Shown here: in pieces, positions 562-14,553 of the stretch
Position numbering within the stretch: position 1 is the first letter of the stretch
Layout: every line of letters starts with the position of its first letter
Assembly: GCA_900544475.1 (NCBI GenBank)
Contig: UQVU01000038.1
Coordinates: forward strand, 1-14,553
Direction: 5' to 3'
Length of the DNA: 14,553 nt
From: an uncultured Butyricicoccus sp.
GTDB taxonomy: Bacteria > Bacillota > Clostridia > Oscillospirales > Butyricicoccaceae
The notes under the pieces: generated by a model
Seen by the model: the letters and a program-made list of their open reading frames with translations, nothing else
What the model was told of the DNA's origin: nothing
The model's database searches: none
Made by a program: the position numbers and the translations under genes

Positions 562-564
562 GAT

Positions 565-1652: not shown

Positions 1653-1704
1653 AATCCCCCGTGGAGCAACGTGAAATGTGCTCCGACGGGGGATTGGTGT
1701 TTTT
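1653..1704 (+). terminator. Bidirectional rho-independent terminator between convergent genes
   Basis: A GC-rich stem (AATCCCCCGTGGAGCA at 1653-1668 against TGCTCCGACGGGGGATT at 1679-1695, one bulged base) lies 8 bases after the stop of the 631-1644 gene. It is followed on the plus strand by GTGTTTTT. On the minus strand the hairpin is followed by TTTCTGCTTTTT, so it can also end the convergent oxidoreductase gene. Confidence 0.85.
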
Positions 1705-1710
1705 CGGGGG

Positions 1711-2409
1711 TTATCTGTCCGTCCACGGGCGGCGCTTGCCGTGCCAGCCGGCCTTCTCCCACGAGGAAAAGTCGGGTTCGGAACGCGCGGAATGCAGGTG
1801 GGCAAAGCGGATGAGGTGAAACCACCGCTTGGCGCGGCGGTTGTATCCGGTTTTTCCTGCGCCGCTTTGAATGCGCCGGGCCATGCGGCCGGTCTGCGCA
1901 TGAATGCGCTCCTGAATACGCGGCGGAACCTCGGCGGGGCGGGACGCCTGCACGCCGAACGTCAGGCGGTATACCTTGCGGACGCCCCACATTTCAAGGC
2001 TGTCCGCGATGTCCTTCGCGGTGCTTTTCAGACCGCCGCCCGCCGCCGTCGCGATTACGACCGCCTGCTTGTGCGCCATTTCCGGGCGCGGACGGTGAAC
2101 GACCCACCATGTCCCGAAATGGTCGAGAAAGCTCATCATCTGGCCGGTGGCGTGATAGACATAGACCGGACTTGCGAAAATCAGCAGGTCGGCCGCGAGA
2201 ATGGCGTCCGCGAGCGGCTTCAAGCGGCCGTAATGCGGACAGTGCGTCAGGTCGGTCCGGAAGCAGGTATAGCAGCCGAGGCAGGGCGCGTCGAAGTCGC
2301 GCGGCAGAAAAAACTCCTGCGTTTCGCCGCCGACCTTGTGCGCCAGCTCACGCGCCGCCAGACAGGTGCTTCCCTCGTGGCTCTGCCCGTGAATGATGAC
2401 CGTTCTCAT
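1711..2409 (-). CDS. Flavodoxin-fold NAD(P)H-dependent oxidoreductase (NADPH-dependent FMN reductase family), 232 aa
   Basis: The start at 2409 (MRTVIIHGQSHEGST) is chosen over an in-frame ATG at 2475 because the family begins directly with its first beta strand and because GGAAGG (complement of 2419-2424) lies 9 bases upstream. The first strand plus GQSHEGST (8-14) is the FMN-phosphate loop. CLGCYTCF with Cys43, Cys46, Cys49 and the later Cys57 is the cysteine cluster common in clostridial members, some of which bind an iron-sulfur cluster or use the cysteines for redox. ADLLIFASPVYVYHATGQM (73-91) is the second flavin-contact strand, and FLDHFGTWW follows. The C-terminal 60 residues are basic. 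It is a cytoplasmic flavoprotein likely reducing quinones, nitro compounds or flavin; substrate unknown. It has its own promoter at 2505-2533 and shares a terminator with the convergent gene. Confidence 0.88.
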   Translation of the reverse strand: MRTVIIHGQSHEGSTCLAARELAHKVGGETQEFFLPRDFDAPCLGCYTCFRTDLTHCPHYGRLKPLADAILAADLLIFASPVYVYHATGQMMSFLDHFGTWWVVHRPRPEMAHKQAVVIATAAGGGLKSTAKDIADSLEMWGVRKVYRLTFGVQASRPAEVPPRIQERIHAQTGRMARRIQSGAGKTGYNRRAKRWFHLIRFAHLHSARSEPDFSSWEKAGWHGKRRPWTDR

Positions 2410-2504
2410 GAAAATACGCCTTCCTTTCGCGCTGCCGGATGCCGGAACGCTTCCCGGCGTCCGGATGTTTCCCATCTGCTGTTCTCTCTGTTTGTGGTAC
2501 GTTC

Positions 2505-2533
2505 AGCATAGCAGAGAAACGCCAAAAATACAA
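2505..2533 (-). promoter_or_regulatory. Sigma-A type promoter of the oxidoreductase gene
   Basis: On the minus strand TTGTAT (complement of 2528-2533) and TATGCT (complement of 2505-2510) are separated by 17 bases, about 95 bases upstream of the start at 2409. The -35 box ends one base before the left end of the 161-bp inverted-repeat element at 2535, so the element insertion stopped right at the promoter edge. Confidence 0.65.
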
Positions 2534-2534
2534 G

Positions 2535-2695
2535 GGCAACACCGCACAATTAAAGCTGCGGCGCTTTGCGGAAATTTTGTGCCCTGACTTTGTTGCGATT
2601 TCACGGTAATACGTCAAGTATTACCGCAAAACCGCGCCTCGTCAGTACGCAAAATTTACTCGCAAATCGCTCTTGTCCAATTATGCGGTATTGCC
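2535..2695. mobile_element. 161-bp MITE-like inverted-repeat element, copy 1
   Basis: The segment starts GGCAACACCGCACAATT and ends AATTATGCGGTATTGCC, which are near-perfect inverted repeats (two mismatches in 17). It matches the segment at 7344-7504 over its full 161 bases with, by my hand count, eight substitutions and no gaps. It contains an internal perfect hairpin CGGTAATAC/GTATTACCG (2604-2612 / 2618-2626) and no credible coding frame. Small size, terminal inverted repeats and dispersed copies fit a miniature inverted-repeat transposable element mobilised by a transposase elsewhere. No clear target-site duplication is visible at this copy (ACAAG on the left, TTCAA on the right). Confidence 0.8.
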
Positions 2696-2893
2696 TTCAA
2701 CTGGCGCAGCATTTCGCGAATGCTCGAACTGAAAAAACTGCTCCTCACCGCCATCGAGGAGCATCGGGAGCTGCCGGAGACCGAGCGCGGCAATCTTCTG
2801 GGCGAGTGCGACCTTATCATGAGCTTTCTCTGCTACAACGACATCAGCGCGATGAGCCGCCTGCACCGCAGCGCAAGCAGCCGGAACAGCTGA
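2696..2893 (+). pseudogene. Internal fragment of a MalT-like LuxR-family transcriptional regulator
   Basis: From the right end of the element the plus frame reads FNWRSISRMLELKK, then LLLTAIEEHRELPETERG and a stretch containing LIMSFLCYNDISAMSRLHRS, stopping at 2893. The segment with SFLxYNDIxxMSxLHRxA is, from memory of the family, typical of the helical repeat region of large (about 800 aa) MalT-like LuxR regulators. Only about 65 residues remain, with neither the ATPase nor the LuxR DNA-binding domain, so it cannot act as a regulator. An ATG at 2720 could start a 57-aa product but has no good ribosome binding site. It begins exactly at the element boundary and is followed by a strong terminator. 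The family assignment is moderately sure; its fragmentary nature is clear. Confidence 0.6.
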
Positions 2894-2915
2894 AAACTTC
2901 ACAGAAACAGGCTCA

Positions 2916-2958
2916 AGGGTCTGCCGCAGTTTTTATCCTGCGGCAGACCCTCATTTTT
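2916..2958 (+). terminator. Strong rho-independent terminator after the regulator fragment
   Basis: AGGGTCTGCCGCAG (2916-2929) pairs over 14 bases without mismatch with CTGCGGCAGACCCT (2938-2951), loop TTTTTATC, followed by CATTTTT. It probably belonged to the gene whose fragment precedes it. Confidence 0.85.
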
Positions 2959-2968
2959 GGCGGTATAA

Positions 2969-2980
2969 CGGTATTGCCTT
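2969..2980 (-). repeat. Solo terminal inverted-repeat end of the MITE-like family
   Basis: CGGTATTGCCTT is the outer 12 bases of the element's right end (its complement AAGGCAATACCG matches the left end of the copy at 7344). No element body is attached on the left. It touches the stop codon of the aldo/keto reductase remnant (TTA at 2979-2981). At 12 bases the match is short, so it may be partly chance, but its position between two gene scraps supports a real remnant. Confidence 0.45.
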
Positions 2981-3197
2981 AAACGATGGTCATGAACCAC
3001 TCGCCCGTCTTGGGGTCGTAGTGCGGGAAGAACAGGCTTTCGCCATGTCCTCGGCGGTCAGCGTGAAGTCGAACAGGTCGAAGTTCTGCTGCATACGCTC
3101 CTTGTAGACCGACTTCGGGATAACGACAACACCGCTCTGCATGAGGAAGCGGAGCGCGGTCTGTGCGGCGGTCTTGCCGCATTTCGCGCCGATTAGA
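2979..3197 (-). pseudogene. C-terminal remnant of an aldo/keto reductase, frameshifted
   Basis: On the minus strand the upstream part reads KCGKTAAQTALRFLMQSG, then VVVIPKSVYKERMQQNFDLF and DFTLTAEDMA, which is the conserved C-terminal third of NADPH-dependent aldo/keto reductases, including the IPKS and R-x-x-x-NFD cofactor-contact motifs. The family continues into a short helix and then ESLFF.HYDP. Here ESLFFPHYDPKTGEWFMTIV is present but in another frame, starting straight after AEDMA near 3046. About seven or eight codons of the intervening helix seem to be missing with a non-multiple of three, giving a frameshift. No N-terminal TIM-barrel sequence precedes it: upstream of about 3197 the plus-strand promoter of the next gene begins. 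It is a dead remnant. Confidence 0.8.
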
Positions 3198-3267
3198 GAA
3201 GGGACGCGCCTCTCTGCAAAAAACTGATAAATCAGACGAAAAAACTGCCCATTCGCGCCGTTTTCCC

Positions 3268-3296
3268 TTGTACTTCCAGAAAAATGATGATAAAAT
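3268..3296 (+). promoter_or_regulatory. Sigma-A type promoter of the hybrid histidine kinase
   Basis: TTGTAC at 3268-3273 and TAAAAT at 3291-3296 are separated by exactly 17 bases in a locally AT-rich stretch, about 60 bases upstream of the kinase start. No other good promoter is visible between the aldo/keto reductase remnant and the kinase. Confidence 0.65.
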
Positions 3297-3355
3297 AAAA
3301 ATGTATAAGTCTTTTCAACAAAAGCCGACTGTATCTGGCTCAAGGGGGAAACGAA

Positions 3356-6300
3356 ATGAGCAGGATAAAGACAACAGCACGAAACGGGTATCTGTGCATC
3401 GCAATGTGCCTGTGCTTTCTTTTTACACTGCTGCCTGCGGCCGGCGCCGCGCCGGATAACAGGACGAAAACCATCCGCGCCGCATGGTACGAGGATTCCG
3501 ACCATATTACCGGCGAAAAGGGCGAGCGCAGCGGCTATGGCTACGAATACGAGCAGGCGGTCGCCTCCTACACCGGCTGGCGCTATGACTACGTAAAGGG
3601 CGACTGGTCCGAGCTGCCGATGGGCGAGGAGAAGTGTTACCTCTACGCCGACCTGACGGACGGGAAAATCTCGCCCTCCGACCTTTCGACACTCAACGGC
3701 AAAAAAATCGTTGTCTTAGAGGGCAGCGTGCAGGGCGAGCAGTTCATCGAGTGGGAGCAGATCCACGGCATCCGGACGCAGCATATTGAGATTCACAGCA
3801 TGGAGAAGGCTATCGCTCTCGCGCAGCGGCACAAAATCGACGGCGTTATCTACAGCGAAACGCCGAAGTGGCCGGCGGCCGGTATGTCCGCCATCACGCA
3901 GATCGGCGGGTCGGATGTTTATTTCGCGATCAACCCCAATCGCCCCGACCTGAAAGAAGAGCTCGACAACGCCATGCGCAAGATGTCGAACGATATGCCG
4001 TTCTACGCGGACGAGCTGTACAAGCGCTACCTCAGCGCGACTTCGACCGCCGTCCTCGACAGCACGGAAAAGGACTGGCTCGCACAGCACGGCGACATCC
4101 GCGTCGGCTGGCTGATTGACGACATCGGTTACAGCAACTTCGAGCCGGGCGTTCCCGGCAAGCTGACCGGCATCATCACGGACTACATCGTTTATGCGAA
4201 GGACTGCCTGGGCGAAAATACGCTGAGCTTCCTTCTGAAGGGGTTCGATTCGCAGGAGGAGCAGCTTCAGGCACTCAAAAACGGGGAGATCGACATGATT
4301 TTCCACGCGGCGCAGAACCCGTACATGGCCGAACGGAACGACCTTATTCTGTCGAACACCGTCATGAAAGTGTCTCTTGCGGCGGTCACGACGCAGAAAT
4401 CCCTCTATGAGGACAAAGCGTGCAGCGTTGCGGTCGTAAGCGACGATCTTGTGCTGCAATGGTACATCTCGTATTACCATCCGACGTGGCAGGTCGTCGC
4501 GTGCGACTCGCAGCAAACGGCGGAGGAAATCGTGCGCAGCGGCGGGGCGGACTGCTTCCTCGTGGAGAACGGACGGCTCAATCAGTACATGGAGGACAAC
4601 CGCTACCGCTGCGTGTTTCTGACGCAGCCGCAGGAGCTTTCGTTCGCGGTGCGCCGCGACAATCCGGTGCTGCTCGCTATCCTGAATAAAACGCTCAAAA
4701 CCATGCAGTCCTCCATGCTGACCGGTGCGCTGTCGCTCTATGACAGCTCCGCGCAGCGCGTCACCCTCGCGAGCTTCGTCAAGGATAATCTGCTTCCTGT
4801 CGCGAGCGGATTTCTCGCGTTCTTCCTGATGATCCTGCTCGTCATTCTCGGCTTTCTGCGCAAGTCACGCATGGCCGAGGCAACCGCACGAGAAGCTGCC
4901 GCGCAGTCGCTTGAGCTGAACCGGCAGCTCCAGAAAAGCCAGCAGGAGCTTCAGGCCGCGCTCATTCAGGCGGAAAGCGCAAACGCCGCGAAAACGACCT
5001 TTCTTTCCAATATGTCGCACGACATCCGCACCCCGATGAACGCCATCGTGGGCATCACACGGCTGATGGAGCACGAAAACGGACTGACCGACCGCCTGCG
5101 CGGCTACATTCACAAAGTACAGTCATCGAGCCGCCATCTGCTCGGCCTTATCAACGATATTCTGGATATGAGCCGCATCGAGTCGCGCGAGGTCAAGCTG
5201 AAAACGGAGGAGGTCAGCCTCGCCGAGCAGGTGGGTCAGGTGGACAGCATCATCCGCGCACAGGCGAACGAACGCAAACAGAATTTTGTCATCTGCAGCA
5301 AGGACATTGTGCACGAAAACCTCATCTGCGACGGCGTGCACCTGCGGCAGGTTTTCCTCAACCTGCTTTCGAACGCGGTCAAGTATACGCCCGAGGGCGG
5401 TGATATTGAGTTTGAGCTGAGCGAGCTGCCGTGCAGCATTTACGGCTACGCGAAGTTCGCCTTTACCGTGACCGATACCGGCTACGGCATGACGCCCGAG
5501 TTTGTGGGGCACATCTTCGAGCCGTTCACCCGCGCGGAAAATTCCATGACGAACAAGGTGCAGGGCACCGGCCTCGGCATGGCGATTACGAAAAACATCG
5601 TTGACCTGATGGGCGGCGAAATTAGGGTCGAAAGCGAGGTCGGAAAGGGCAGCCGCTTTACGGTCACGCTGACGCTGCGGCTCAACGAGCGGGCCGACCG
5701 CACGAACGGCGCGGAGCACGTGCTGCTGATTTCTGAGGACGAGCGCCTCATCCGCAACACCCGTGCGGCGCTGAGCGAAACCGATACCGCGTTCGAGGCG
5801 GCACACTTTGACGAGGCGGAAAAGCGCCTGCGCGAGGGCACGACCGACGTTATCATGCTGACCGGCGCACTGCCGGGGAAAACGCTCAAGGAAACGGTCA
5901 GCCTGTGCCGCGAGCTTGCGAAAAACGCCGTGCTCATTTTCTTTGTGGACTATCAGCAGGAGGAGAAAACGCAGGCGGAGCTCACCGAGAGCGGCGTGGA
6001 CGGCATGATACCGCGTCCGTTCTTCCTGTCGCATCTCGCAAGCGCTATCGCCTCGACCCGCGCCCGCACGGTTTCGAGCAGTCCGAACCGCACCATTCTC
6101 TACGGAAAGCGCTTCCTGTGCGCCGAGGACAACGAGCTGAACGCGGAAATCCTGAAAGAGCTGCTGCATATGTACGGCGCGGAATGCACCATCTATCCGG
6201 ACGGCAAGCAGCTGACGGAAGCCTTCAAAACGCTGAAACCCGGCGAGTATGACGCTATCCTGATGGACGTACAGATGCCCGTGATGAACGGCCTTGACGC

Positions 6301-6487
6301 GACCCGCGCTGTCCGTAGCGGCGGCAATCCGCTTGGCCGCACGATACCGATTATCGCCATGACGGCGAACGCCTTTTCCGAGGACGTTCAGAACTGCCTG
6401 GACGCCGGCATGGACGCGCATATCGCGAAGCCGCTCGATATTGCGCTTCTCGAAAAAACGCTCCGCAGCCTGCTGCACAAGAGATAA
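3356..6487 (+). CDS. Membrane hybrid sensor histidine kinase with tandem solute-binding (SBP_bac_3-like) sensor domains
   Basis: The 1043-aa protein starts at 3356 behind AAGGGGG (3342-3348). Order: signal peptide (about 1-31, cut near AGAA); first periplasmic binding-protein-like domain (about 37-229); second (about 245-462); TM helix about 480-502; coiled coil to about 548; HisKA with phospho-acceptor His555 in SHDIRTPMNAI; ATPase domain with N-box Asn673, DTGYGM at 707 and GTGLGM from 737; degenerate receiver about 786-900; intact receiver with acidic Glu924/Asp925, phospho-acceptor Asp971 (LMDVQMPVMNG) and Lys1025. It should sense a small ligand such as an amino acid outside the cell and phosphorylate its own receiver; no regulator or DNA-binding partner is adjacent. 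In the first sensor domain the sequence jumps from GDWSE to LPMGEEKCYLY (residues 82-97), omitting the roughly 35-residue NGEIDL.....TPER segment normal for the fold. In the degenerate receiver Thr836 occupies the phospho-Asp position and Arg replaces Lys. Confidence 0.93.
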   Translation: MSRIKTTARNGYLCIAMCLCFLFTLLPAAGAAPDNRTKTIRAAWYEDSDHITGEKGERSGYGYEYEQAVASYTGWRYDYVKGDWSELPMGEEKCYLYADLTDGKISPSDLSTLNGKKIVVLEGSVQGEQFIEWEQIHGIRTQHIEIHSMEKAIALAQRHKIDGVIYSETPKWPAAGMSAITQIGGSDVYFAINPNRPDLKEELDNAMRKMSNDMPFYADELYKRYLSATSTAVLDSTEKDWLAQHGDIRVGWLIDDIGYSNFEPGVPGKLTGIITDYIVYAKDCLGENTLSFLLKGFDSQEEQLQALKNGEIDMIFHAAQNPYMAERNDLILSNTVMKVSLAAVTTQKSLYEDKACSVAVVSDDLVLQWYISYYHPTWQVVACDSQQTAEEIVRSGGADCFLVENGRLNQYMEDNRYRCVFLTQPQELSFAVRRDNPVLLAILNKTLKTMQSSMLTGALSLYDSSAQRVTLASFVKDNLLPVASGFLAFFLMILLVILGFLRKSRMAEATAREAAAQSLELNRQLQKSQQELQAALIQAESANAAKTTFLSNMSHDIRTPMNAIVGITRLMEHENGLTDRLRGYIHKVQSSSRHLLGLINDILDMSRIESREVKLKTEEVSLAEQVGQVDSIIRAQANERKQNFVICSKDIVHENLICDGVHLRQVFLNLLSNAVKYTPEGGDIEFELSELPCSIYGYAKFAFTVTDTGYGMTPEFVGHIFEPFTRAENSMTNKVQGTGLGMAITKNIVDLMGGEIRVESEVGKGSRFTVTLTLRLNERADRTNGAEHVLLISEDERLIRNTRAALSETDTAFEAAHFDEAEKRLREGTTDVIMLTGALPGKTLKETVSLCRELAKNAVLIFFVDYQQEEKTQAELTESGVDGMIPRPFFLSHLASAIASTRARTVSSSPNRTILYGKRFLCAEDNELNAEILKELLHMYGAECTIYPDGKQLTEAFKTLKPGEYDAILMDVQMPVMNGLDATRAVRSGGNPLGRTIPIIAMTANAFSEDVQNCLDAGMDAHIAKPLDIALLEKTLRSLLHKR

Positions 6488-6495
6488 CCAAAAAT

Positions 6496-6538
6496 ACCTC
6501 CCTGCACCGCCGTGAAAGGCTTTGTGCAGGGAGGTTTT
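6496..6538 (+). terminator. Rho-independent terminator of the hybrid kinase gene
   Basis: ACCTCCCTGCAC (6496-6507) pairs without mismatch with GTGCAGGGAGGT (6524-6535) and is followed by TTTTCG. It lies 8 bases after the kinase stop codon. Confidence 0.85.
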
Positions 6539-6595
6539 CGTAGGTCTGAATGTGTTTGCCGGGCGCTTGCCGCGCAGAAGACAACGAAACTCTGG

Positions 6596-6615
6596 TTTAA
6601 TTGTGCGGTGTTGCC
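6596..6615 (-). repeat. Solo terminal inverted-repeat end of the MITE-like family
   Basis: The complement of 6596-6615, GGCAACACCGCACAATTAAA, is identical over 20 bases to the left end of the element copy at 2535-2554. No internal element sequence follows, so it is one isolated end facing leftwards. A 20-base identity is too long for chance in this window. Confidence 0.75.
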
Positions 6616-6670
6616 TTTTTTCCGTGCAGCATTTTCGGGGGCGGGATTGTATCTCTGATGAAGACGATAA

Positions 6671-6808
6671 AACACCAACGCATTTGCCGGAAACGGCACG
6701 CTCATGGTGCCGGTCCGCGCACTCGGCGAGGAAAACTACTTCGCCTATACCGCCATCCCGGACGCTGTCGGCCTGACCGAGGCACAGCTCGAGGCGGCGC
6801 TGAAATAA
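6671..6808 (+). pseudogene. C-terminal remnant of an unrecognised protein
   Basis: Within the 460-base gap between the kinase and the flavoprotein gene, the plus frame after a stop at 6668 reads NTNAFAGNGTLMVPVRALGE, then ENYFAYTAIPDAVGLTEAQL and EAALK, ending at TAA 6806-6808. The composition and codon pattern look coding, and NGTLMVPVRALGE slightly resembles the MVPvRa.aE motif of copper amine oxidase-like stalk domains, but the rest does not, so no family is claimed. There is no ribosome binding site in front of the internal ATG at 6704. I interpret it as the tail of a deleted gene, lying just right of the solo element end. Apart from the terminator and this remnant, nothing else is seen in 6540-6947 except a possible promoter. 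Confidence 0.4.
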
Positions 6809-6857
6809 CGGGCGCAATGGTTTCCTTTTGGTAACTACGGCACAATATTGTGCGTAC

Positions 6858-6886
6858 TTTACGGATGGCTAAAGCCGTGGTATTGT
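6858..6886 (+). promoter_or_regulatory. Possible promoter of the pyridoxamine oxidase-family gene
   Basis: TTTACG (6858-6863) and TATTGT (6881-6886) are 17 bases apart, about 60 bases before the start at 6948. Both boxes deviate from consensus and the region is AT-rich, so this is only the best candidate. Confidence 0.3.
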
Positions 6887-6947
6887 TATATCAACAAAGA
6901 AAAACACCGCAAAACACGCGGAAATAATATTTCTGGAGGTCAATATC

Positions 6948-7343
6948 ATGAGCAAAGTCGTAGAATTCCTGAACGCAAATCCGGTACAGTATCTCGCAAC
7001 CGTAGGCCGTGACGGCAAGGCAAAGTGCCGCCCGTTTATGTTCTCCGGTGAGATGGATGGCAAGCTGTGGTTCTGCACCAACAGCACCAAGGACGTTTAC
7101 AAGGATATGCAGGCAAACCCGGAGATCGAGATTTCGGTTTCCAGCCCGGAGTACGCATGGATCCGCCTGCACGGCAAGGCTGTTTTCGAGAACAACATGG
7201 CAGCCAAGGAGATGTGCATTGCCAACCCGATCGTAAAGGGTCAGTACGGCGAGGCGACCAACCCGATTTTCGAGGTGTTCTATCTGGAAAATCCGCACGG
7301 CGCAATCGCTGACTTCTCCGGCAAGCCGCCGTACGAGTTCTAA
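6948..7343 (+). CDS. Pyridoxamine 5'-phosphate oxidase-family (FMN-binding split-barrel) protein, 131 aa
   Basis: A strong ribosome binding site TGGAGGT (6934-6940) precedes the ATG by 7 bases. The protein opens with a helix (MSKVVEFLNAN) and then YLATVGRDGKAKCRPFMF (15-32), the first strands of the FMN-binding split barrel, followed by KLWFCTNSTKDVYKDM (39-54), ANPEIEISV (56-64) and WIRLHGKAVF (71-80), all in the order and spacing of small PNPOx-like proteins of anaerobes. At 131 residues it has the usual length for this single-domain group. It is cytoplasmic and probably a flavin- or F420-like cofactor-binding reductase dimer; true PdxH activity is unlikely because the characteristic PLP-binding C-terminus is absent. 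Codon choice looks like that of a well-expressed gene. The stop codon TAA directly abuts the left end of the second inverted-repeat element. Confidence 0.9.
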   Translation: MSKVVEFLNANPVQYLATVGRDGKAKCRPFMFSGEMDGKLWFCTNSTKDVYKDMQANPEIEISVSSPEYAWIRLHGKAVFENNMAAKEMCIANPIVKGQYGEATNPIFEVFYLENPHGAIADFSGKPPYEF

Positions 7344-7504
7344 GGCAATACCGCATAATGAAAGCTGCGGCGCTTTGCGGAAATTTCGTGCCCTGACTTT
7401 GTTGCGATTTCACGGTAATATGTCAAGTATTACCGCAAAATCTCGCCTCGTCAGTACGCAGAATTTACTCGCAAATCGCTCTTGTCCAATTATGCGGTAT
7501 TGCC
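7344..7504. mobile_element. 161-bp MITE-like inverted-repeat element, copy 2
   Basis: The element begins GGCAATACCGCATAAT and ends ATTATGCGGTATTGCC, a perfect 16-base terminal inverted repeat, and is about 95 percent identical to the copy at 2535-2695 over its whole length. CTAA stands on both flanks (7340-7343 and 7505-7508), a possible 4-base target duplication. An internal hairpin CGGTAATA/TATTACCG is conserved. It fills the space between the flavoprotein stop codon and the ribosome binding site of the macrodomain gene, so any transcript of the macrodomain-SirTM pair either starts inside it or reads through it. No convincing -35/-10 pair was found inside. Confidence 0.85.
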
Positions 7505-7526
7505 CTAAAAATGAGGAGGGAAAAAG

Positions 7527-8312
7527 ATGACGCACAAAATGCAGCGCAGATACCTGATAGAAGAATTATTGAAAGAGAATCGTCAATACAGCGGAATGAA
7601 GATTCCAACCGATGAGAATGAGCAAAAAGCTCTTCTACGAGCTTTAATGAATGTTCGTCTGCCGAAAGCGGTTCCCCCTCGTTTTTTGGAAATTCAGGAT
7701 GAATACTTACAGGAAGAAATACGTCGTGGAGCTATTGTCGATGCCGATTCTCTGCCGCCTGTTCCGGGAGATTGCCGCATTGCGCTGTGGCAGGGGGATA
7801 TGACCACGTTGCGAGTGGATGCAATCGTAAATCCTGCCAACAGCGGCATGTGTGGGTGTTTCCAACCTTTACACAACTGTTTAGATAATATCATTCACAG
7901 CAAAAGCGGAATTGCTCTGCGGCTGTACTGTGCAGATATGATGAAGAAACAGGGCCACGAAGAGCCGACCGGGCAAGCAAAAATCACACCGGGTTTCAAT
8001 TTGCCCTGCAAGTACATTATCCATACAGTCGGCCCGATCATCTATGACCGGGTAAGACAAGAGGATGAACAGCTGCTTGCGTCCTGCTATCGCTCCTGCT
8101 TGAAGCTGGCTGATGAAAATGGTGTCCGGAGCATTGCCCTTTGCTGCATTTCCACCGGAGTGTTTCGATTTCCGAATGATCGTGCAGCAGAGATTGCGGT
8201 TCAGACTGTGCGAGAATATTTGAATGGGGACACGGGGATAAGAAAGGTGATATTTAATGTTTTCAAGGATATTGACAAGGAAATCTATACAAAGCTCCTT
8301 GGGACAGGCTGA
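7527..8312 (+). CDS. Zinc-type macrodomain protein-ADP-ribosyl hydrolase (SirTM-linked), 261 aa
   Basis: The ATG at 7527 follows GAGGAGGG (7513-7520) by 6 bases. Residues 1-80 form a helical N-terminal extension typical of SirTM-associated macrodomains. The macrodomain starts at IALWQGDMTTLRVDAIVNPA (85-104): Asp91 and Asn102/Asn105 are ADP-ribose contacts. GCFQPLHNCLDN (110-121) carries Cys111, His116 and Cys118, matching the zinc-binding motif of the zinc-dependent macrodomain class. YIIHTVGP (163-170) and CCISTGVFRFP (206-216) are the later strand and phosphate-binding loop. Family members remove mono-ADP-ribose from proteins modified by the neighbouring sirtuin. The gene overlaps the SirTM start by 56 bases, indicating translational coupling. 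By eye it is more AT-rich than the surrounding genes, which with the flanking element suggests acquisition. Confidence 0.93.
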   Translation: MTHKMQRRYLIEELLKENRQYSGMKIPTDENEQKALLRALMNVRLPKAVPPRFLEIQDEYLQEEIRRGAIVDADSLPPVPGDCRIALWQGDMTTLRVDAIVNPANSGMCGCFQPLHNCLDNIIHSKSGIALRLYCADMMKKQGHEEPTGQAKITPGFNLPCKYIIHTVGPIIYDRVRQEDEQLLASCYRSCLKLADENGVRSIALCCISTGVFRFPNDRAAEIAVQTVREYLNGDTGIRKVIFNVFKDIDKEIYTKLLGTG

Positions 8313-9123
8313 AAAGCTCCGTTCGGCACTTCAAGGTGCAGATGCTGTGGTTGTTGGTGCGGGAGCAGGTCTGTCCACCTCGGCCGGATTTGTTTATAAT
8401 GGTGAACGATTTCAACAATATTTCTGTGACTTCGCTTCAAAGTATGGCTTCAGTGATATGTACTCCGGTGGTTTTTATCCTTATGCGACATTGGAAGAAT
8501 ACTGGGCGTACTGGAGCCGCTATATCTGGATCAACCGCTACACGCCCGCACCGAAACCGGTGTACAGCGACCTGTTGGCACTGGTCAAGGATAAGGATTA
8601 TTTTGTTCTGACCACGAATGTCGACCATCAATTCCAGAAAGCCGGGTTCGACAAGCACCGCCTGTTCTACACGCAAGGCGATTACGGGCTGTTCCAGTGC
8701 AGTCAGCCATGCTGTCAGAAAACCTACGACAACGAAGAAATCGTCCGTCAGATGGTCGAGCAGCAACGCAATATGCGCGTGCCAAGCGAGCTTGTGCCGC
8801 GCTGCCCGGTCTGCGGCAGACCGATGACAATAAATTTGCGCTGCGATGATACCTTTGTCGAGGACGAGGGGTGGCATCGGGCGGCAGAGCGGTATTCGGA
8901 GTTTCTGCGGCGGCACAAGGGGCTGAAAACGCTGTTTCTGGACTTGGGTACCGGAATGAATACGCCGACAATCGTAAAGTTTTCTTTCTGGCGTATGGCG
9001 AACGAGTGGCCGGATGCTGCTTATGCCTGCATCAACTTGGGCGAAGCCTATGCACCGAAAGAGATCAAAGCAAAGTCTATCTGCATCGATGCAGATATTG
9101 GAAGTGTGTTGAATCAAATCTGA
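8257..9123 (+). CDS. Class M sirtuin (SirTM), NAD+-dependent protein ADP-ribosyltransferase, 288 aa
   Basis: The start at 8257 lies inside the end of the macrodomain gene and has AAAGGTGA (8243-8250) 6 bases upstream. The NAD-binding GAGAGLSTSAGF (34-45) opens a sirtuin Rossmann fold. TTNVDHQF (119-126) supplies Asn121 and Asp123, and YTQGDYGLFQC (138-148) has Gln140 where deacetylating sirtuins carry the catalytic His; this substitution defines SirTM enzymes, which transfer ADP-ribose rather than deacylate. Structural zinc ligands are Cys148/Cys152 and the CPVC pair Cys183/Cys186. LDLGTGMNTPTIVKFSFW (229-246) and ACINLGEAYAP complete the NAD pocket. In staphylococci and streptococci the enzyme modifies a lipoylated GcvH-like carrier; no carrier or lipoate ligase gene is within this window. 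Base composition rises in GC from roughly 8500 onward relative to the first part of the gene. Likely cytoplasmic. Confidence 0.93.
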   Translation: MFSRILTRKSIQSSLGQAEKLRSALQGADAVVVGAGAGLSTSAGFVYNGERFQQYFCDFASKYGFSDMYSGGFYPYATLEEYWAYWSRYIWINRYTPAPKPVYSDLLALVKDKDYFVLTTNVDHQFQKAGFDKHRLFYTQGDYGLFQCSQPCCQKTYDNEEIVRQMVEQQRNMRVPSELVPRCPVCGRPMTINLRCDDTFVEDEGWHRAAERYSEFLRRHKGLKTLFLDLGTGMNTPTIVKFSFWRMANEWPDAAYACINLGEAYAPKEIKAKSICIDADIGSVLNQI

Positions 9124-9188
9124 ACCGTATCTGCAACCGGCACAGGCTGATAAGAGCCGGAAAGGATACGCAAATGGAAAAGTCAATT

Positions 9189-9205
9189 ATTGTGCGGTGT
9201 TGCCC
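9189..9205 (-). repeat. Solo terminal inverted-repeat end of the MITE-like family
   Basis: The complement of 9189-9205, GGGCAACACCGCACAAT, is identical over 17 bases to the left boundary of the element at 2534-2550, including the extra outer G. No element body is attached. It lies 65 bases after the SirTM stop and 4 bases before the -35 box of the next gene, and faces the full copy at 7344-7504 in inverted orientation across the macrodomain-SirTM pair. Confidence 0.7.
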
Positions 9206-9209
9206 TATC

Positions 9210-9238
9210 TTGCAGAAACTGAAGATTTCTCCTATAAT
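9210..9238 (+). promoter_or_regulatory. Strong sigma-A type promoter of the sensor kinase / response regulator unit
   Basis: TTGCAG (9210-9215) and a consensus TATAAT (9233-9238) are 17 bases apart. The likely transcription start falls near 9245, almost on the ribosome binding site, so the 5' leader would be very short. This separates the two-component genes from the SirTM unit upstream. Confidence 0.75.
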
Positions 9239-9261
9239 GAGATTTGAGGGGGGAGCTGCCC

Positions 9262-11196
9262 ATGAAGAACAAACGAATGCGCTATATCTCGATAACGGCG
9301 GCTATCCTGCTGGTTTTTGTGCTGCTGATGCTGCTGTTTTCCAACCGATCGGGCGATTTCAGCGCAATGGAAGCGCAGAACGGCGTGCTGGATGCAACAT
9401 CAGCGGACTTTTCGTCGGCGCTATATGAGATAGACGGTGAATGGGCGTTCTATCCTGAGGTACTCGGCAGCGGCGCAGAGCTGAGCACGGCCCAACCGGG
9501 AGAACGCAATGAATCCATTCCATACGGCTCATACCGGCTGCAAATACACGCGCAGCCGAAACAATACCTGACACTTGGCGGCTACTCATTCGATTACAGC
9601 ACGCGCGTGCTGGTAAACGGCAGTGAAGTGCTCGAAATCGGCAAGGTGGGGGCGTCCGCGGCGGAGTCTGAGCCGCGCATCGACTATATGCTCATACCGA
9701 TTTACACCAGCGAGGATGGCACGGTCGAGGTGGTCTGCCAGTACGCGAATTTCGTGCATCGCGAAGGCGGCGGTCTGACGCAGATGCATCTTTCTGCCGC
9801 GGAGAACATCGACCGCATGCGCCGAAGCCAGAATTTGTATTCCTTAGTGCTTGGCGGTTCGCTGTGCCTGTTCGGCATGTATTTTCTGCTGTTTGCGGTC
9901 TTTCAGGGCGAGAGCAAGTATGTTTTCCTCGCGGTCATCTGCGCGCTGCTCGGTCTGCGTGACCAGAATTTCTATGTGCTGCATCTGCTGCCTGCAAGCT
10001 ACAACTGGGCAGTCGCATATCGGTTTCTGGTGCTGATGATTACGCTGCAGCCGTGTTTTCTGCTGCTTTTGCTGCAAAGCCTGTACGAAAAGCTGGCGAA
10101 GCCGATCGTTGTGCGGTGCTATGCGGCGCTGTATACCGTGCTGGCGGCGGCGCATTTTATCCTGCCGACGCAGGATATCGCACCGCTGAGTAAAATCGGG
10201 TACTATCTCTCGATACCGTTTTTCCTGTATCTGGTTGTACAGCTGATTCGGCGGTTCTGGCGTATCCGGCGGTTTGAATGGGACGATGTGCTTGTTCTGC
10301 TCGGCTATCTGCTGTTGTTCGGCTCGAACGTGTACGAGGCGGTATTTGGCCGCATCGTGACGACCATCACGCGCCACGGAGCAGCGCCGCCGTATCTGCT
10401 GGTGTTCGTGTTCCTGATTGCGGGAGCCATCAGCCTGAAGATCAACCGCCGGGAACAGGAGCTGTCCGAGAGCCGCCGTCAGCGTGAGGTGCTGACCCAG
10501 CTCAACCGGCAGAAAAGCGAATTTCTGCACCAGATGGCGCATGAACTGAAAACGCCGCTCACGGTTATGAGCGGCTACGCGCAGCTGACCGACTGGCAGC
10601 TTAGCACCGGAGCGGTCGGCGCGAGCGCGCATGAACACATGCAGACCATTTCGTCCGAAGCGCAGCGGCTTTCTGCGCTCGTATCGCGGCTGATCGACCT
10701 CGCCAACGGCGGTTCACCCGATATTGAGATGGGCGTCATTGACGCGGCGCAGCTGCTGTCCGGCGCGGTGGATGTGTGCCGTCCGATGCTGGAAAAGAAG
10801 CACAACCGGCTGGAAAGCGACAGTGGAGAGGGCATTACGCTCTGGGGCAATACGGAAATGCTGCTGCAGGTGCTCATCAACCTGACGGTCAATGCCAATC
10901 GCTACACGGAGAACGGCGTGATCGCCTACCGCATTGCGGACGAGGGTGAGCGGGTGTGCCTGCGCGTGAGCGACACCGGCAGCGGCATTGCGCCCGACCT
11001 GCTGCCGCATATCTTTGAGAAGGGCTGCAGCGGCGACGGCGGCAGCGGTATCGGCCTGACGATCTGCGCGGACGCGATGAGGATTCACCACGGCTCGCTC
11101 GAGGTGGAGCATACCGATGCAGACGGCACGGTGTTCCGGCTCGAATTGCCGAAAAAGCCGCTCAAAACACAAGGAGAGAACGATTGTGGAAGATAA
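9262..11196 (+). CDS. 7TM-DISM-like membrane sensor histidine kinase, 644 aa
   Basis: ATG 9262 is preferred over an upstream in-frame TTG at 9244 because AGGGGGGAG (9247-9255) sits 6 bases before it. An N-terminal membrane anchor (about 7-27) is followed by an extracellular beta-sandwich (about 50-190; DGEWAFYPEVL, YGSYRLQIHA, TRVLVNGSEVLEIGKVG) resembling the sugar-binding-like sensor of 7TMR-DISM proteins. About seven hydrophobic helices follow (192-214, 219-235, 250-272, 284-302, 312-329, 342-362, 376-394), then a short coiled coil. HisKA has His427 in HQMAHELKTPL; the ATPase domain has Asn544 (NLTVNANRYT), DTGSGI from 571 and GSGIGL from 594. It probably senses a carbohydrate-like or small extracellular ligand and phosphorylates the overlapping regulator. 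The stop codon overlaps the regulator start by 11 bases. The extracellular-domain family is inferred from pattern only. Confidence 0.92.
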   Translation: MKNKRMRYISITAAILLVFVLLMLLFSNRSGDFSAMEAQNGVLDATSADFSSALYEIDGEWAFYPEVLGSGAELSTAQPGERNESIPYGSYRLQIHAQPKQYLTLGGYSFDYSTRVLVNGSEVLEIGKVGASAAESEPRIDYMLIPIYTSEDGTVEVVCQYANFVHREGGGLTQMHLSAAENIDRMRRSQNLYSLVLGGSLCLFGMYFLLFAVFQGESKYVFLAVICALLGLRDQNFYVLHLLPASYNWAVAYRFLVLMITLQPCFLLLLLQSLYEKLAKPIVVRCYAALYTVLAAAHFILPTQDIAPLSKIGYYLSIPFFLYLVVQLIRRFWRIRRFEWDDVLVLLGYLLLFGSNVYEAVFGRIVTTITRHGAAPPYLLVFVFLIAGAISLKINRREQELSESRRQREVLTQLNRQKSEFLHQMAHELKTPLTVMSGYAQLTDWQLSTGAVGASAHEHMQTISSEAQRLSALVSRLIDLANGGSPDIEMGVIDAAQLLSGAVDVCRPMLEKKHNRLESDSGEGITLWGNTEMLLQVLINLTVNANRYTENGVIAYRIADEGERVCLRVSDTGSGIAPDLLPHIFEKGCSGDGGSGIGLTICADAMRIHHGSLEVEHTDADGTVFRLELPKKPLKTQGENDCGR

Positions 11197-11860
11197 ACTG
11201 ATTTTGCTGGTGGAGGACAATCCGCACATTATGGCGATCAACGACGCGGCACTGCATATGCGCGGTTACCGCACCCTGCAGGCAGAAACCGCGCACAAGT
11301 GCCGGGAGCTGCTGTGCTTTCACGCGGTGGACCTGATCGTGCTGGATATTCTTCTGCCGGACGGCGACGGCGTGGCGCTGTGCCGCGAGATCAAGCAGGA
11401 ATATGACGTGCCGATCCTGTTCCTGACCGCTATGGGCGAAAACGAGGATATCGTCAAGGGACTGACCGCAGGCGGAGACGATTATCTGACAAAGCCGTAT
11501 GATCTGGAGGTGTTCATGGCCCGCGTGGAAGCGCGTCTGCGTGCGGCGCACCCGAAGGAACGCGCAGTACGGTTTGGACCGCTGCAGATGAATCTGCTGA
11601 GCGGACGCGCGTACATCGGAGAGACCGACCTGAATCTGACGCAGAAGGAGTTTGCGGCGCTGCTGTATCTGGCGCGGAACCCGAACCGCAGCGTCAGCGC
11701 GCAGGAGCTGTACGAGGCGGTCTGGCAGCAGCCGATGGGAGCCGACCCGCATGCCGTACGCATGACGATCTCGCGGCTTAAGCAGAAGCTCGGCGGAGAG
11801 GATGCGAGGGTCACGGTCAATTCGTACCGCAGCAGCGGCTATCGGCTCGAGGAGCAATAA
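11186..11860 (+). CDS. OmpR/PhoB-family response regulator, 224 aa
   Basis: The start is a GTG at 11186 (translated MEDKLILLVEDN), set by AAGGAGAG (11171-11178) 7 bases upstream; an ATG at 11117 in the same frame would extend the protein with kinase-tail sequence that has no family counterpart. The receiver has the acidic pair Glu10/Asp11, phospho-acceptor Asp54 (VLDILLPDGDG), Thr81 and Lys103 (TKPYD). The winged-helix DNA-binding domain covers about 128-222 with LTQKEFAALLYL, VWQQP, VRMTISRLKQKL and the terminal hairpin SYRSSGYRL. It is a cytoplasmic transcription factor translated together with the sensor kinase through an 11-base overlap and ended by a strong terminator. Its targets are unknown; the secreted FG-GAP protein gene 176 bases downstream is a candidate by position only. 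Confidence 0.95.
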   Translation: MEDKLILLVEDNPHIMAINDAALHMRGYRTLQAETAHKCRELLCFHAVDLIVLDILLPDGDGVALCREIKQEYDVPILFLTAMGENEDIVKGLTAGGDDYLTKPYDLEVFMARVEARLRAAHPKERAVRFGPLQMNLLSGRAYIGETDLNLTQKEFAALLYLARNPNRSVSAQELYEAVWQQPMGADPHAVRMTISRLKQKLGGEDARVTVNSYRSSGYRLEEQ

Positions 11861-11870
11861 TTGAATATTT

Positions 11871-11924
11871 ACAGCGGACGGCGAAGGTAACAAATTTGAT
11901 ACCTTCGCCGTTCGCTGTCTTTTT
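11871..11924 (+). terminator. Rho-independent terminator after the two-component operon
   Basis: A 19-base stem (ACAGCGGACGGCGAAGGTA at 11871-11889 with TACCTTCGCCGTTCGCTGT at 11900-11918, one G-U pair) is followed by CTTTTT. It lies 10 bases after the regulator stop and separates it from the FG-GAP protein gene. Confidence 0.9.
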
Positions 11925-12036
11925 GCCTTTATACTGAAAGTACGGTGAAATACCTGTATCCTCGGACGGTGCGCCGCAGTAAAGCAAGGGGAAAACCGTG
12001 GAAACCGTTTATTTCATAAGGCAAGGAGGAAGAAAG

Positions 12037-14553
12037 ATGAAAAAACGAATTTGCAGTTTGCTGCTGATATGCAGTATGCTGGCAGGTCTGCTGCCGCAGA
12101 TCGTGCTGCCGCAGGCGGCGGCTGCGGATACTGCAGCAGCAAGAGACGGCTTTGGTCTGCCCACGGAAGAAAAAACGGGCATGACAGACGAAGCCACACT
12201 TCGTAATAACCCATACGGCACGCTGGGATGGGTTCCGCTGTTCCAGAACCACGAGCTGGTTGTAGCCGGCGTGGACTCGGATGAGTTCCAGACGACATAC
12301 GAGGGCGCAGCCAACGGAAAGGGCAATCAGATGTCTACGTTTCGGTGGAGCAACTCGACGGATGTCGGCAATGCCGAGCGCATTGCGACTGTGGCATTTG
12401 ACCCGAACGGCACCGGCAAGGACGAGTACATTGCGAATCTGGTATTTGATAAAAGTAAGGCACGGCTTCGCCTGTATGTGACGAACAAGGACCGCAAGGT
12501 GTCTGGTGTTATGGATGTTTGCGGTGGCGACAGTGAGTACATCAAGAACCTGAAATTCTATCAGACCCGCGCTATGCTGTGTCTGACCGCAGGCGACTTT
12601 GACGGCGACGGCAAGGATACCCTGATGGTCTACACGCAGGGCAATAACCAGAATACGGATACGGTAGACAGCATTAAGGAGTATACGTTCAGCGGCGGCA
12701 AACTGGATGAGGGTAAGCGCGTTATCAACCTCGGTGACGTCATTGACGGCGGCCGAGATGCGCTGAAAGCAATGCTGTACCACGACGGCAACGGCGATAA
12801 CGAGCTGCGCGCGCATCTGAGCGTTGATATGGAAGTCGGCGACGTGGATATGGACGGTATCGACGAGCTGGCAATGACGGTCAACGTCAACGACCTGAAA
12901 CAGAGCGAATACAAGCTGGATGGTAAAAAATATACCGACTTTGAAAAGTCTTATCTGACGGTTTACGACTACAACGACAAGAACAGTTGGAATCAGAAGC
13001 TGAACGAAAAGCTGCTGAACGAGGATGGCGGCGCAAGCGGCCGTGCCCGTTTTGCAGGCGTGACCATCGGTTATATCAGTGATAAGCCGAGCGGCAGTAT
13101 GCCGCCGGAAGTTGTTGCGGTAGGCTACTACGATAAGAATGGTGATTATCAGGACTGCGAGTTTGACAGGAGCAAGCTGCTGGCATACAGCTATCAGTAC
13201 AGCACGAAGGATAATTCGTGGACAGAGAAATGCAAGGCGACAGAAGTTGTCACCAACGGCTTTACCAATACCGGCACCAAGGGTGACGATGTGCAGAATC
13301 CGATCGCGGTAGCGGCTGTTGCGGCGGACGGCGTCAACACCAAGGAATATCTGTTCATTTCCGGCAGTATGTATCAGATTGGCACGGTGGACGGCAATCA
13401 GCGGCTGTCTATCCTGGAAGGCTCGAATAAGGGCCATGACCGCTGGCTGGGCGGCCGTCTCATCAACAACAGCGGTATTCTGGACTATGCCGTCGGCAAT
13501 TTTAACGGCAACAAGCAGGGCATGGAACAGGTATACTACGTTGAGTACCGCAAGCAGGAGACCTTCGACAAGCAGTTTTTGAAGATTGGTCAGCTTTATA
13601 AAAAATCGAGTACGAGCACCTCGGGCGGTCAGACAACGGTTACGCCGGACAGCACGTTCAGCCGCTGGGAGGATGACTGGACATACTATGACAAGAGCAA
13701 CTGTAATCTGGCGCTTACAACGGCAGATGTAAACAACGATGCCATGCTCGCGAAGATCAAAAGCGTCAGCACCGGCTACACCGATCCGAAGGTAATGGCG
13801 ATTCTGGAAGCGTCGCCGCATTTCGCTGAGGTGAATGACGGCGATATCGGAAACTCCGCGACGTCGATCGGCAAGAGCAAGGAGGAAGGTTTTAATGCGA
13901 CCGTATCCGGCTCGTTTGGTTTTGATATTATGGCGGGCTTTGAATATGTCGCGCCGCTCATCGAGACTGGCGGCGGTGTGGAGTTCAATACCAGTCATAC
14001 CTTTACGGCGGGTACAACACAGTCTGCCAGCCGCACGATAGAGGTTGTTTATTCCAACTCTACGAATGAAAACATGGTGGTCATGTATGCAACGCCGATG
14101 ACTTACTATGAGTACGAGGTGAAATATCCGGACAATACAAAGAAGGGAAATTCGCCGAAGCTGACCAGTGCCATGACGCTGGCGGTTCCGGGTAATCCTT
14201 CGATGAACATGGTTTCGGTGGATACCTATAACGAGGCCGCATCGGCGTACGAGGGTATGCAGCAGATTGGCAGCAACCTGCATCTGGGTACGCCCGGTCA
14301 GCCGAATACCTATCGTTCCAGTTTGCCGAGTGGTAAACTTTCGTGGGCTTCTGAGGCTAAAGACGCAGGTCACTACAGGGACAGCGGCACAAAGACACAG
14401 CGCATTACCACTTCCACAGGCAGCAGCCTGAACTTTGAGTATTCCTATGAAGGCTCGGTGCAGATGTACGGCGTCGTAGGCGGCTTCAAGGCAGGCGGCG
14501 GCTATCACTGGGGTGCAAGCGTCGGTACGGAAAAAGTTAATACCACCAGCATT
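12037..14553 (+). CDS. Large secreted FG-GAP/VCBS-like repeat protein, 3' end outside window (839 codons visible)
   Basis: A near-perfect AAGGAGGA (12023-12030) is 6 bases before ATG 12037, and the frame stays open to the right edge. The signal peptide is clear: MKKRICSLLLICSMLAGLL with cleavage near residue 30 (QAAAA-D). Two calcium-loop-like FG-GAP motifs are visible: GDFDGDGKDTL (Asp187, 189, 191, 194) and GDVDMDGIDEL (Asp269, 271, 273, 276), plus a degenerate one at NFNGNKQG (about 488). They suggest an integrin-like beta-propeller at about 60-540. A Ser/Thr/Gly linker (STSTSGGQTTVTP) follows. The next part (about 585 onward) reads MAILEASPHFAEV and then alternating hydrophobic/polar strands (ATVSGSFGFDIMAGFEY, TASRTIEVVY-like, MVVMYATPMTYYEYEV) and at the right edge GGFKAGGGYHWGASV. 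Such strands recall beta-barrel pore formers or long beta-sandwiches; function unknown. A good promoter is not obvious in the 176-base gap. Confidence 0.85.
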   Translation, partial: MKKRICSLLLICSMLAGLLPQIVLPQAAAADTAAARDGFGLPTEEKTGMTDEATLRNNPYGTLGWVPLFQNHELVVAGVDSDEFQTTYEGAANGKGNQMSTFRWSNSTDVGNAERIATVAFDPNGTGKDEYIANLVFDKSKARLRLYVTNKDRKVSGVMDVCGGDSEYIKNLKFYQTRAMLCLTAGDFDGDGKDTLMVYTQGNNQNTDTVDSIKEYTFSGGKLDEGKRVINLGDVIDGGRDALKAMLYHDGNGDNELRAHLSVDMEVGDVDMDGIDELAMTVNVNDLKQSEYKLDGKKYTDFEKSYLTVYDYNDKNSWNQKLNEKLLNEDGGASGRARFAGVTIGYISDKPSGSMPPEVVAVGYYDKNGDYQDCEFDRSKLLAYSYQYSTKDNSWTEKCKATEVVTNGFTNTGTKGDDVQNPIAVAAVAADGVNTKEYLFISGSMYQIGTVDGNQRLSILEGSNKGHDRWLGGRLINNSGILDYAVGNFNGNKQGMEQVYYVEYRKQETFDKQFLKIGQLYKKSSTSTSGGQTTVTPDSTFSRWEDDWTYYDKSNCNLALTTADVNNDAMLAKIKSVSTGYTDPKVMAILEASPHFAEVNDGDIGNSATSIGKSKEEGFNATVSGSFGFDIMAGFEYVAPLIETGGGVEFNTSHTFTAGTTQSASRTIEVVYSNSTNENMVVMYATPMTYYEYEVKYPDNTKKGNSPKLTSAMTLAVPGNPSMNMVSVDTYNEAASAYEGMQQIGSNLHLGTPGQPNTYRSSLPSGKLSWASEAKDAGHYRDSGTKTQRITTSTGSSLNFEYSYEGSVQMYGVVGGFKAGGGYHWGASVGTEKVNTTSI

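Follow-up and report, generated by a model that had tools for sequence, protein, structure and literature searches.

A 14,553-nucleotide (nt) stretch of DNA from an uncultured Butyricicoccus sp. of the class Clostridia (GenBank assembly GCA_900544475.1, contig UQVU01000038.1, positions 1 to 14,553 of the forward strand), hereafter the window, contains at 7527-9123 two overlapping genes that encode a zinc-dependent macrodomain protein (Zn-macrodomain or Macro) and a class M sirtuin (SirTM), predicted respectively to erase and to write ADP-ribose marks on proteins. We consider it probable, on balance, that this pair is a lipoyl-independent writer-eraser module of redox operons, which would act in a redox or electrophile stress response; this estimate covers no single named target. 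The pair by itself is already known. The extended SirTM operon of Lactobacillales and Staphylococcaceae comprises GcvH-L, Macro, SirTM, LplA2, OYE and LLM, and lipoyl-GcvH-L is the only proven SirTM substrate in the portions of the literature cited here (PMC4518038; PMC11490716). Stand-alone SirTM/Zn-Macro pairs have been published as "independent operons" (Rack 2015, PMC4518038) and as a "minimal operon" (Ariza 2024, PMC11490716), and their targets are given as unknown in the same portions of these papers. What is new here is the redox-operon setting of such pairs and the apparent dependence on SirTM of a peptide system termed ACGX. The redox-operon setting was not found in the open-licence PMC literature, represented mostly by titles and the beginnings of abstracts, and may be in print elsewhere.

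The preliminary description of this DNA had recognised an overlapping macrodomain with a Cys-x4-His-x-Cys motif and a sirtuin in which Gln replaces the catalytic His; both open reading frames are present as described, with an overlap of 56 nt, and by sequence criteria they constitute a SirTM/Zn-Macro pair whose enzymatic roles are predicted. The macrodomain protein matches Pfam Macro (E 9.8e-39) and the NCBIfam protein-ADP-ribose hydrolase model (348.5 bits, cut-off 272), and its top relatives in the structural database are PDB 8rsi, 5kiv and 8rsl. It carries the zinc motif and the Dx3H dyad that characterise Zn-macrodomains (C111, H116, C118, D120 and H124); the three zinc ligands are identical in 98/98 aligned macrodomains, that of the window included, and the Asp and His of the dyad are each retained in 97/98. 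A positively charged patch close to the active site, reported for macrodomains that bind GcvH-L, was considered and set aside as evidence, as the net charge of the loops near the active site is too variable among the 98 proteins (-3 to +4, the window protein standing at -2 and the single macrodomain from an extended operon at +2).

The SirTM protein falls below the general Pfam SIR2 cut-off (20 vs 24 bits) and matches PDB chain 5a3a, which we take to be SpySirTM, at E 9.7e-73. A weaker match is found to the two-domain chain 8rsn, presumably the fungal macro-sirtuin fusion, which matches both window proteins; the fungal Mfs1 fusion has the same two domains, whereas in the window they are encoded by separate overlapping genes. 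Residues N121, Q140 and R195 are unchanged in 108/108 aligned SirTM rows, counting the window and after six loci had been dropped for want of a sufficiently long frame, and their alignment counterparts in SpySirTM are N118, Q137 and R192, mutation of which lowered activity dramatically according to the portion of PMC4518038 cited here. The pyrophosphate motif GVGx[NT]TP is present as GTGMNTP (residues 231-237), with one substitution, V to T. The assignment to the class M sirtuins thus combines QG in place of HG, the conserved Asn and Arg, and the overlapping macrodomain gene. As read from the DNA, the pair has intact frames, catalytic and zinc residues and the overlap, and has no lipoyl partners.

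The overlap suggests that Macro and SirTM are translationally coupled. Among 81 loci, the window plus 80 SirTM-related loci selected by similarity (together the first set), 59 have Macro followed by SirTM with 47-77 nt of overlap. The other 22 comprise eight without overlap, seven in reverse order (one with a further SirTM behind the macrodomain gene) and seven with no full-length macrodomain gene within 3 kb, one of which is interrupted by a contig start. A writer with no full-length macrodomain within 3 kb is seen in L028, L031, L045, L056, L071 and L074. Two or more tandem SirTM matches occur in one cassette in L001 (9126-10810), where a single Macro is followed by two overlapping SirTM frames, and also in L183, L197 and L226, some of which, outside L001, may be fragments.

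In relatives such pairs often stand at the end of strings of predicted flavin, ferredoxin or NAD(P) oxidoreductase genes that are linked to an HxlR or Rrf2 regulator. Clustering followed by six-frame hidden Markov model searches of the first set revealed a recurrent upstream order of regulator, further genes, PPOX or PPOX-ferredoxin, Macro and SirTM, in which the regulator is either a divergently placed HxlR or an Rrf2 and the further genes belong to at least one of the radical-SAM/SPASM, SnoaL-like, NmrA-like, ADH-like and nitroreductase families; individual loci hold portions of this string. Four of the neighbour clusters (c12, c20, c25 and c28) were judged by eye to be antisense frames lying over real genes, c20 over PPOX and c12 over ACGX peptides, and the neighbour counts were redone by six-frame searches after these antisense-like clusters had appeared. 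Within the first set 66 of the 81 loci could be counted upstream and 59 downstream, the remainder having less than 3 kb of DNA. A PPOX-type gene of the same orientation is found in the 3 kb upstream at 36/66 loci vs 1/59 downstream, HxlR upstream in 22/66, Rrf2 in 15/66, and any of the families in 53/66 upstream and 5/59 downstream; collapsing the set at 85% SirTM identity leaves PPOX in 25/48 clusters.

A class-wide draw of 391 genomes, sampled evenly from the class, gave a similar picture. SirTM was detected in 69 genomes at E up to 1e-20, a threshold that admits some fragments and weak matches, and neighbourhoods were counted at 65 SirTM loci, of which 60 have 3 kb upstream and 49 have 3 kb downstream. 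Fragmentary or weak matches in G064, G084, G098, G292, G408 and G415 were left out, as were secondary fragments; 12 of the 65 loci were initially reached via ACGX, yet are members of the same draw. Any family is found upstream in 41/60 loci vs 3/49 downstream (45/65 and 6/65 if the 3-kb requirement is dropped), PPOX in 23/60 vs 0/49, and HxlR upstream in 26/60. Similar combinations of genes also occur on plasmids, as annotated in RefSeq: a Roseburia plasmid carries a helix-turn-helix protein that is an HxlR, acgA, acgM, a nitroreductase, a 4Fe-4S protein, an ADP-ribose hydrolase (Macro) and Sir2; a Treponema plasmid carries an NAD(P)H-binding protein, PPOX, Rrf2, a SirTM match annotated as hypothetical, and Macro; and an Enterococcus plasmid carries Rrf2, a short-chain dehydrogenase/reductase, Macro, SirTM and PPOX. 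A DUF1848 gene adjoins the pair upstream in L057 and downstream in the Roseburia plasmid (L177).

These counts alter the significance of the gene upstream of the window pair, which had been described as an unrelated flavoprotein in an unusual context. The fold assignment stands (a PPOX split barrel), but PPOX is among the commonest upstream neighbours in the draw, so that its position is not random. Nor is the context unusual, as the clostridial draw shows that such pairs generally have no lipoyl neighbours; since stand-alone pairs have already been published, a pair with neither GcvH-L nor LplA2 next to it represents an ordinary arrangement.

The preliminary description had named two outcomes as refuting, namely close relatives with GcvH-L and LplA2 just outside an equivalent cassette, and a GcvH-L encoded elsewhere in the genome as the only modified protein; neither was seen, the second being approached through the genomes of relatives. 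No GcvH-L or LplA2 was detected among the window genes scanned, and a same-strand search of the 3 kb to either side of the 65 SirTM loci of the draw found neither gene. Lipoyl genes were then counted in the genomes of relatives, covering 50 genomes of the 80 loci (L001-L040, L042, L045-L048, L050, L051, L059, L060 and L068). There is no strong match to GcvH, lipoate ligase (LplA/LipB), LipA or E2 in 42/50 of these genomes with close SirTM relatives, or in 34/50 if weak over-cut-off GcvH and E2 matches are counted. GcvH scores above 100 bits in six genomes, eight genomes have a lipoate ligase catalytic domain that passes its cut-off, and E2 is strong in three (E below 1e-30, excluding partial over-cut-off matches of 28.3 and 26 bits in G030 and G040); LipA is over cut-off in 0/50, with 25 weak matches only. 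As controls, the extended operons of Aerococcus and Mesomycoplasma, which also supplied the queries for the search around the draw loci, are recognised by the models, with scores of 65.6 and 62.3 bits for GcvH-L and of 171.5 and 167 bits for LplA2. Weak PF01597 matches of 24.1 bits or less, in seven of the 13 genomes over cut-off, were excluded as lying far under these GcvH-L controls (62-66 bits); all other PF01597 scores in the 50 genomes are 105-143 bits, and none is in the GcvH-L range between. In the Mesomycoplasma hyorhinis record (L176) the extended operon has LLM, a lipoyl protein, Sir2, LplA and a flavin oxidoreductase, and none of the genes in that stretch is annotated as encoding a macrodomain.

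Many of these genomes are metagenome-assembled, with completeness not given, and single absences may therefore be gaps; Blautia parvula (L059, titled a complete genome) and L009 (a 2.6-Mb contig) have no lipoyl match over the cut-offs. G440, the nearest genome found (95% identity across the kinase genes downstream of the pair), has neither lipoate ligase nor GcvH; it is also without SirTM, its sole sirtuin-type match (24 bits) being taken as a canonical sirtuin. Two close homologues bear the name Agathobaculum, which is probably the genus of the host. Across the 391 drawn genomes, lipoate ligase is present in 15/69 with SirTM vs 151/322 without (Fisher p 9e-5), and is hence absent from 54/69 SirTM genomes. 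According to the portion of PMC11490716 cited here, the macrodomain of one minimal operon, like those of fusions, fails to demodify GcvH-L, which we count for the lipoyl-independent reading.

Given that 42 relatives' genomes have no strong match to lipoyl machinery and that G440 lacks ligase and GcvH, a non-lipoyl target is likely for the window pair, as the preliminary description had suspected in proposing a target distinct from the lipoyl carrier, and lipoylated targets are unlikely for most clostridial pairs. It is highly improbable that SirTM modifies a lipoylated carrier whose gene lies at another place in the genome, in the manner known from staphylococci and streptococci: the status of lipoyl-GcvH-L as proven substrate and the 15 SirTM genomes that possess a ligase speak for such a carrier, but the 42/50 and 54/69 genomes without the machinery sought, the depletion of lipoate ligase among SirTM genomes, the lack of any PF01597 score in the GcvH-L range, and the state of G440 argue against it.

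The radical-SAM gene of the SirTM strings points to the ACGX system. At the two loci tested it matches TIGR04340 (rSAM_ACGX, acgM; 590.8 and 603.8 bits, cut-off 400), and 5/5 small open reading frames tested match TIGR04341, the ACGX-repeat peptide (acgA; 55-69 bits, cut-off 28). We found no publication on the ACGX peptide system in the open-licence PMC literature, nor, in that same body of mostly titles and abstract beginnings, any link between ACGX and SirTM/Macro. rSAM_ACGX is present in 16/80 related loci (the L020 copy is interrupted by a contig end), and when these loci and the window were screened for further families of conserved small peptides, ACGX stayed the sole convincing one. In L057 remnants of ACGX peptide occur with no radical-SAM gene.

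Across the draw, rSAM_ACGX is over cut-off in 15/391 genomes (16 genes, one with an in-frame stop), and an ACGX-like peptide occurs at 16/16 of these loci. At 12/16 the radical-SAM gene is followed, in the same orientation and less than 3 kb away, by Macro-SirTM; L131 and L133 have less than 1 kb between the last operon gene and the contig end, with no macrodomain gene there. At three radical-SAM matches that fall short of the cut-off (284-308 bits), peptide and pair are both missing (0/3). SirTM is present in 15/15 ACGX genomes vs 54/376 others (p 1.3e-12, uncorrected for relatedness), lying away from ACGX in three of the 15, while ACGX is found in 15/69 SirTM genomes, an asymmetry that fits ACGX as a client of SirTM, or a co-regulated cassette. 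Lipoate ligase is absent from 14/15 ACGX genomes of the draw and from 10/10 ACGX genomes among the 50. Among 33 whole or partial ACGX peptides, 201/202 Cys residues sit in a CG motif. The third position behind CG holds Asp in 112/199 cases and Cys in 82/199, so the repeat contains both; the known ADP-ribose acceptor in GcvH-L is an aspartate, according to the cited portion of PMC4518038. Mapped on the SirTM tree, the ACGX label changes 19 times, as compared with a shuffled mean of 26.5 and with 0/500 shuffles as low, and the supported forks force six changes (on a quick tree with many forks open).

These observations raise the possibility, which we put forward tentatively and rate below even chances, that in Clostridia a radical-SAM-modified, Cys-rich ACGX-repeat peptide has taken over from lipoyl-GcvH-L the part of the carrier, to be ADP-ribosylated by SirTM and released by the Zn-macrodomain, with the Asp or cysteines of the repeat as acceptor; window-type pairs would then be reduced relatives with PPOX alone. 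ACGX is not an obligate SirTM target, because closely related SirTMs occur with and without it. A rather doubtful alternative is that the clustering is merely regulatory, gathering stress genes under HxlR or Rrf2, while SirTM modifies an unlinked housekeeping protein. The exchange of neighbours along the SirTM tree, exemplified by the 19 ACGX changes, and the draw loci with none of the neighbour families are compatible with such an explanation; the presence of SirTM in every ACGX genome and of the pair just downstream at 12/16 loci is tighter than shared regulation suggests, and not one of the 500 shuffles clusters the ACGX label as strongly on the tree.

The window itself retains little of this string (Table 1). 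The SirTM falls into a seven-member group that is supported (95*) and has no ACGX. The closest member, L001 (Gemmiger), has HxlR, SnoaL, a window-type PPOX, an energy-coupling factor (ECF) transporter-like gene, PPOX-ferredoxin, Macro and the two tandem SirTMs; what is left of these in the window is PPOX, Macro and a single SirTM. PPOX is directly upstream on the same strand, 183 nt from Macro, and 166 of these 183 nt are a repeat resembling a miniature inverted-repeat transposable element (MITE), which folds into one long hairpin (z -7.6). This repeat is found at at least 38 places in G440, where 40 of 138 candidates were scored; single repeat ends lie at 6605 and 9194 of the window. No ACGX-like repeat was found in six frames of the window, and no radical-SAM match. 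An Rfam search gave no match, and promoter-like matches are no commoner than in shuffled sequence.

Table 1. Features of the window around the macrodomain-SirTM pair
Feature	Position	Strand	Basis
PPOX-class split-barrel flavoprotein, 131 aa; probably the original operon partner of the pair	6948..7343	+	
MITE-like repeat, 166 nt, terminal inverted repeats, between PPOX and Macro	7344..7509	.	
Second repeat copy, 94% identical	2535..2700	.	
Zn-macrodomain, predicted protein-ADP-ribose hydrolase (eraser), 261 aa	7527..8312	+	Pfam, NCBIfam, PDB matches, alignment
Zinc motif CFQPLHNC codons, residues 111-118 (C111-x4-H116-x-C118), then D120-x3-H124	7857..7880	+	
SirTM, class M sirtuin, predicted mono-ADP-ribosyltransferase (writer), 288 aa	8257..9123	+	
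Overlap of Macro 3' end and SirTM 5' end, 56 nt	8257..8312	+	
Q140-G141 codons, QG where sirtuins have HG	8674..8679	+	
Flank: sensor kinase, response regulator, large protein running off window end; 91.6% conserved in G440, there without a preceding SirTM pair	9226..14543	+	

The sensor kinase reported as the downstream neighbour is present, but it is probably incidental to the pair, since synteny with G440 breaks at 9226 and other genes precede the same kinase region there. G440 keeps an HxlR-PPOX pair with 83% DNA identity around PPOX and no Macro-SirTM beside it; PPOX, therefore, does not need the pair. The GC content is 46.8% over 7501-8500 and 55.2% over 8501-9000, and other 500-nt intervals range from 51 to 63%. 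In view of the lower GC in part of the cassette, the synteny break and the repeat between PPOX and Macro, the pair looks like an accessory module, and its co-transcription with PPOX in the window strain is uncertain. At 6490-6947, between a hybrid kinase and PPOX, inspection by eye shows a short frame that terminates in ...FAYTAIPDAVGLTEAQLEAALK and resembles the tail of a broken gene. The region 11998-14553, conserved in G440, encodes a large protein with a signal-like start, preceded by the two-component system.

An accessory cassette could also be a toxin-antitoxin or defence module with SirTM as toxin and Macro as antitoxin, and the eraser-writer order with overlap, the low GC of 7501-8500 (not shared by 8501-9000) and the absence of SirTM from G440 speak for this. 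We regard this as very unlikely: in the first set SirTM occurs without a full-length macrodomain gene within 3 kb at seven loci and in reverse order at seven more, the recurrent neighbours are redox genes, and just 3/50,697 phage records gave matches, of which two were partial and one reached 41.5% identity across 93% of the protein, no search of PADLOC having been made.

A more specific proposal is that the PPOX flavoprotein, or a PPOX-ferredoxin paralogue, is itself the ADP-ribosylated substrate, the mark gating flavin or iron-sulphur activity. PPOX is the sole redox partner remaining beside the window pair, lies near the pair on the Treponema and Enterococcus plasmids too, and is frequent upstream in both samples (36/66 and 23/60), although 37/60 draw loci have none within 3 kb upstream and a PPOX of the same type persists in G440 without the pair. 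The window PPOX shares just 24-27% identity with the best-matching PPOX-ferredoxins, so that a single conserved target site is doubtful, and we judge PPOX a weak candidate for the substrate.

If the pair is a lipoyl-independent redox module, SirTM may transfer ADP-ribose from NAD+ to a redox partner whose gene accompanies that of SirTM or is induced with it, the acceptor being an acidic side chain (or a cysteine); the mark would hold that partner inactive, and the Zn-macrodomain would strip it under stress and so free the partner. In ACGX operons the modified ACGX peptide would be the likely target, standing in for GcvH-L, with the radical-SAM enzyme in the role of LplA2 and the flavoproteins in those of LLM and OYE. 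In the window, where the ACGX genes are absent, the mark may fall on PPOX, on the electron-transfer partner of PPOX, or on a protein whose gene lies elsewhere. An iron or redox setting is consistent with the control of the Staphylococcus aureus GcvH-L operon, which is raised by the iron-regulated small RNA IsrR according to the cited part of PMC11257911.

Several observations weigh against this interpretation. The window has no HxlR, Rrf2, PPOX-ferredoxin or ACGX genes, a hairpin-forming repeat parts its PPOX from Macro, and no Macro or SirTM is found beside the HxlR-PPOX pair of G440 in the 17 kb examined, no genome-wide search for Macro proteins having been made. None of the redox families lies within 3 kb upstream at 19/60 draw loci. 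The choice of neighbour families was based on the first 80 loci, in which they were then counted; the same models served for the draw, and at least four of its 65 loci are shared with the first set (L014, L009, L060, and L130, which is L079). Two of the 16 ACGX loci (L125 and L126) have no pair in about 16 kb, and closely related SirTMs, e.g. those of L005 and L011, differ in the presence of ACGX. On the lipoyl side, there remain the lower figure of 34 genomes obtained with weak matches and the 15/69 SirTM genomes with a ligase; G442 and G443, which belong to the same family as G440, also have both SirTM and a ligase. In these two genomes (L170 and L169) HxlR adjoins a diverged Macro-SirTM pair with no tested oxidoreductase between.

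The window locus shares with the stand-alone operons (Rack 2015; Ariza 2024, MorMacro) the adjoining Zn-Macro and SirTM genes, the QG sirtuin, the zinc motif and the lack of GcvH-L and LplA2. It differs in that its relatives sit at the 3' end of redox strings, which are not described in the portions of those papers cited here, and of these the window keeps PPOX only. The extended operon likewise clusters a writer, an eraser and flavin oxidoreductases, and the ACGX subset, in which acgM and acgA score over their curated cut-offs, is analogous to it in pairing a small modified carrier with a modifying enzyme. In contrast, the clostridial strings have no lipoyl carrier or ligase, and contain PPOX, PPOX-ferredoxin, nitroreductase, NmrA-like and ADH-like genes with HxlR or Rrf2.

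The redox-operon pairs point away from lipoylated targets in most clostridial carriers, and provide a short list of testable candidates, namely the AcgA peptide, PPOX, PPOX-ferredoxin and nitroreductase. The ACGX peptide system gains a possible biochemical setting, as all 15 ACGX genomes of the 391 drawn have SirTM. If the ACGX peptide does take the place of lipoyl-GcvH-L, these loci would represent a second, lipoyl-free type of extended SirTM operon.

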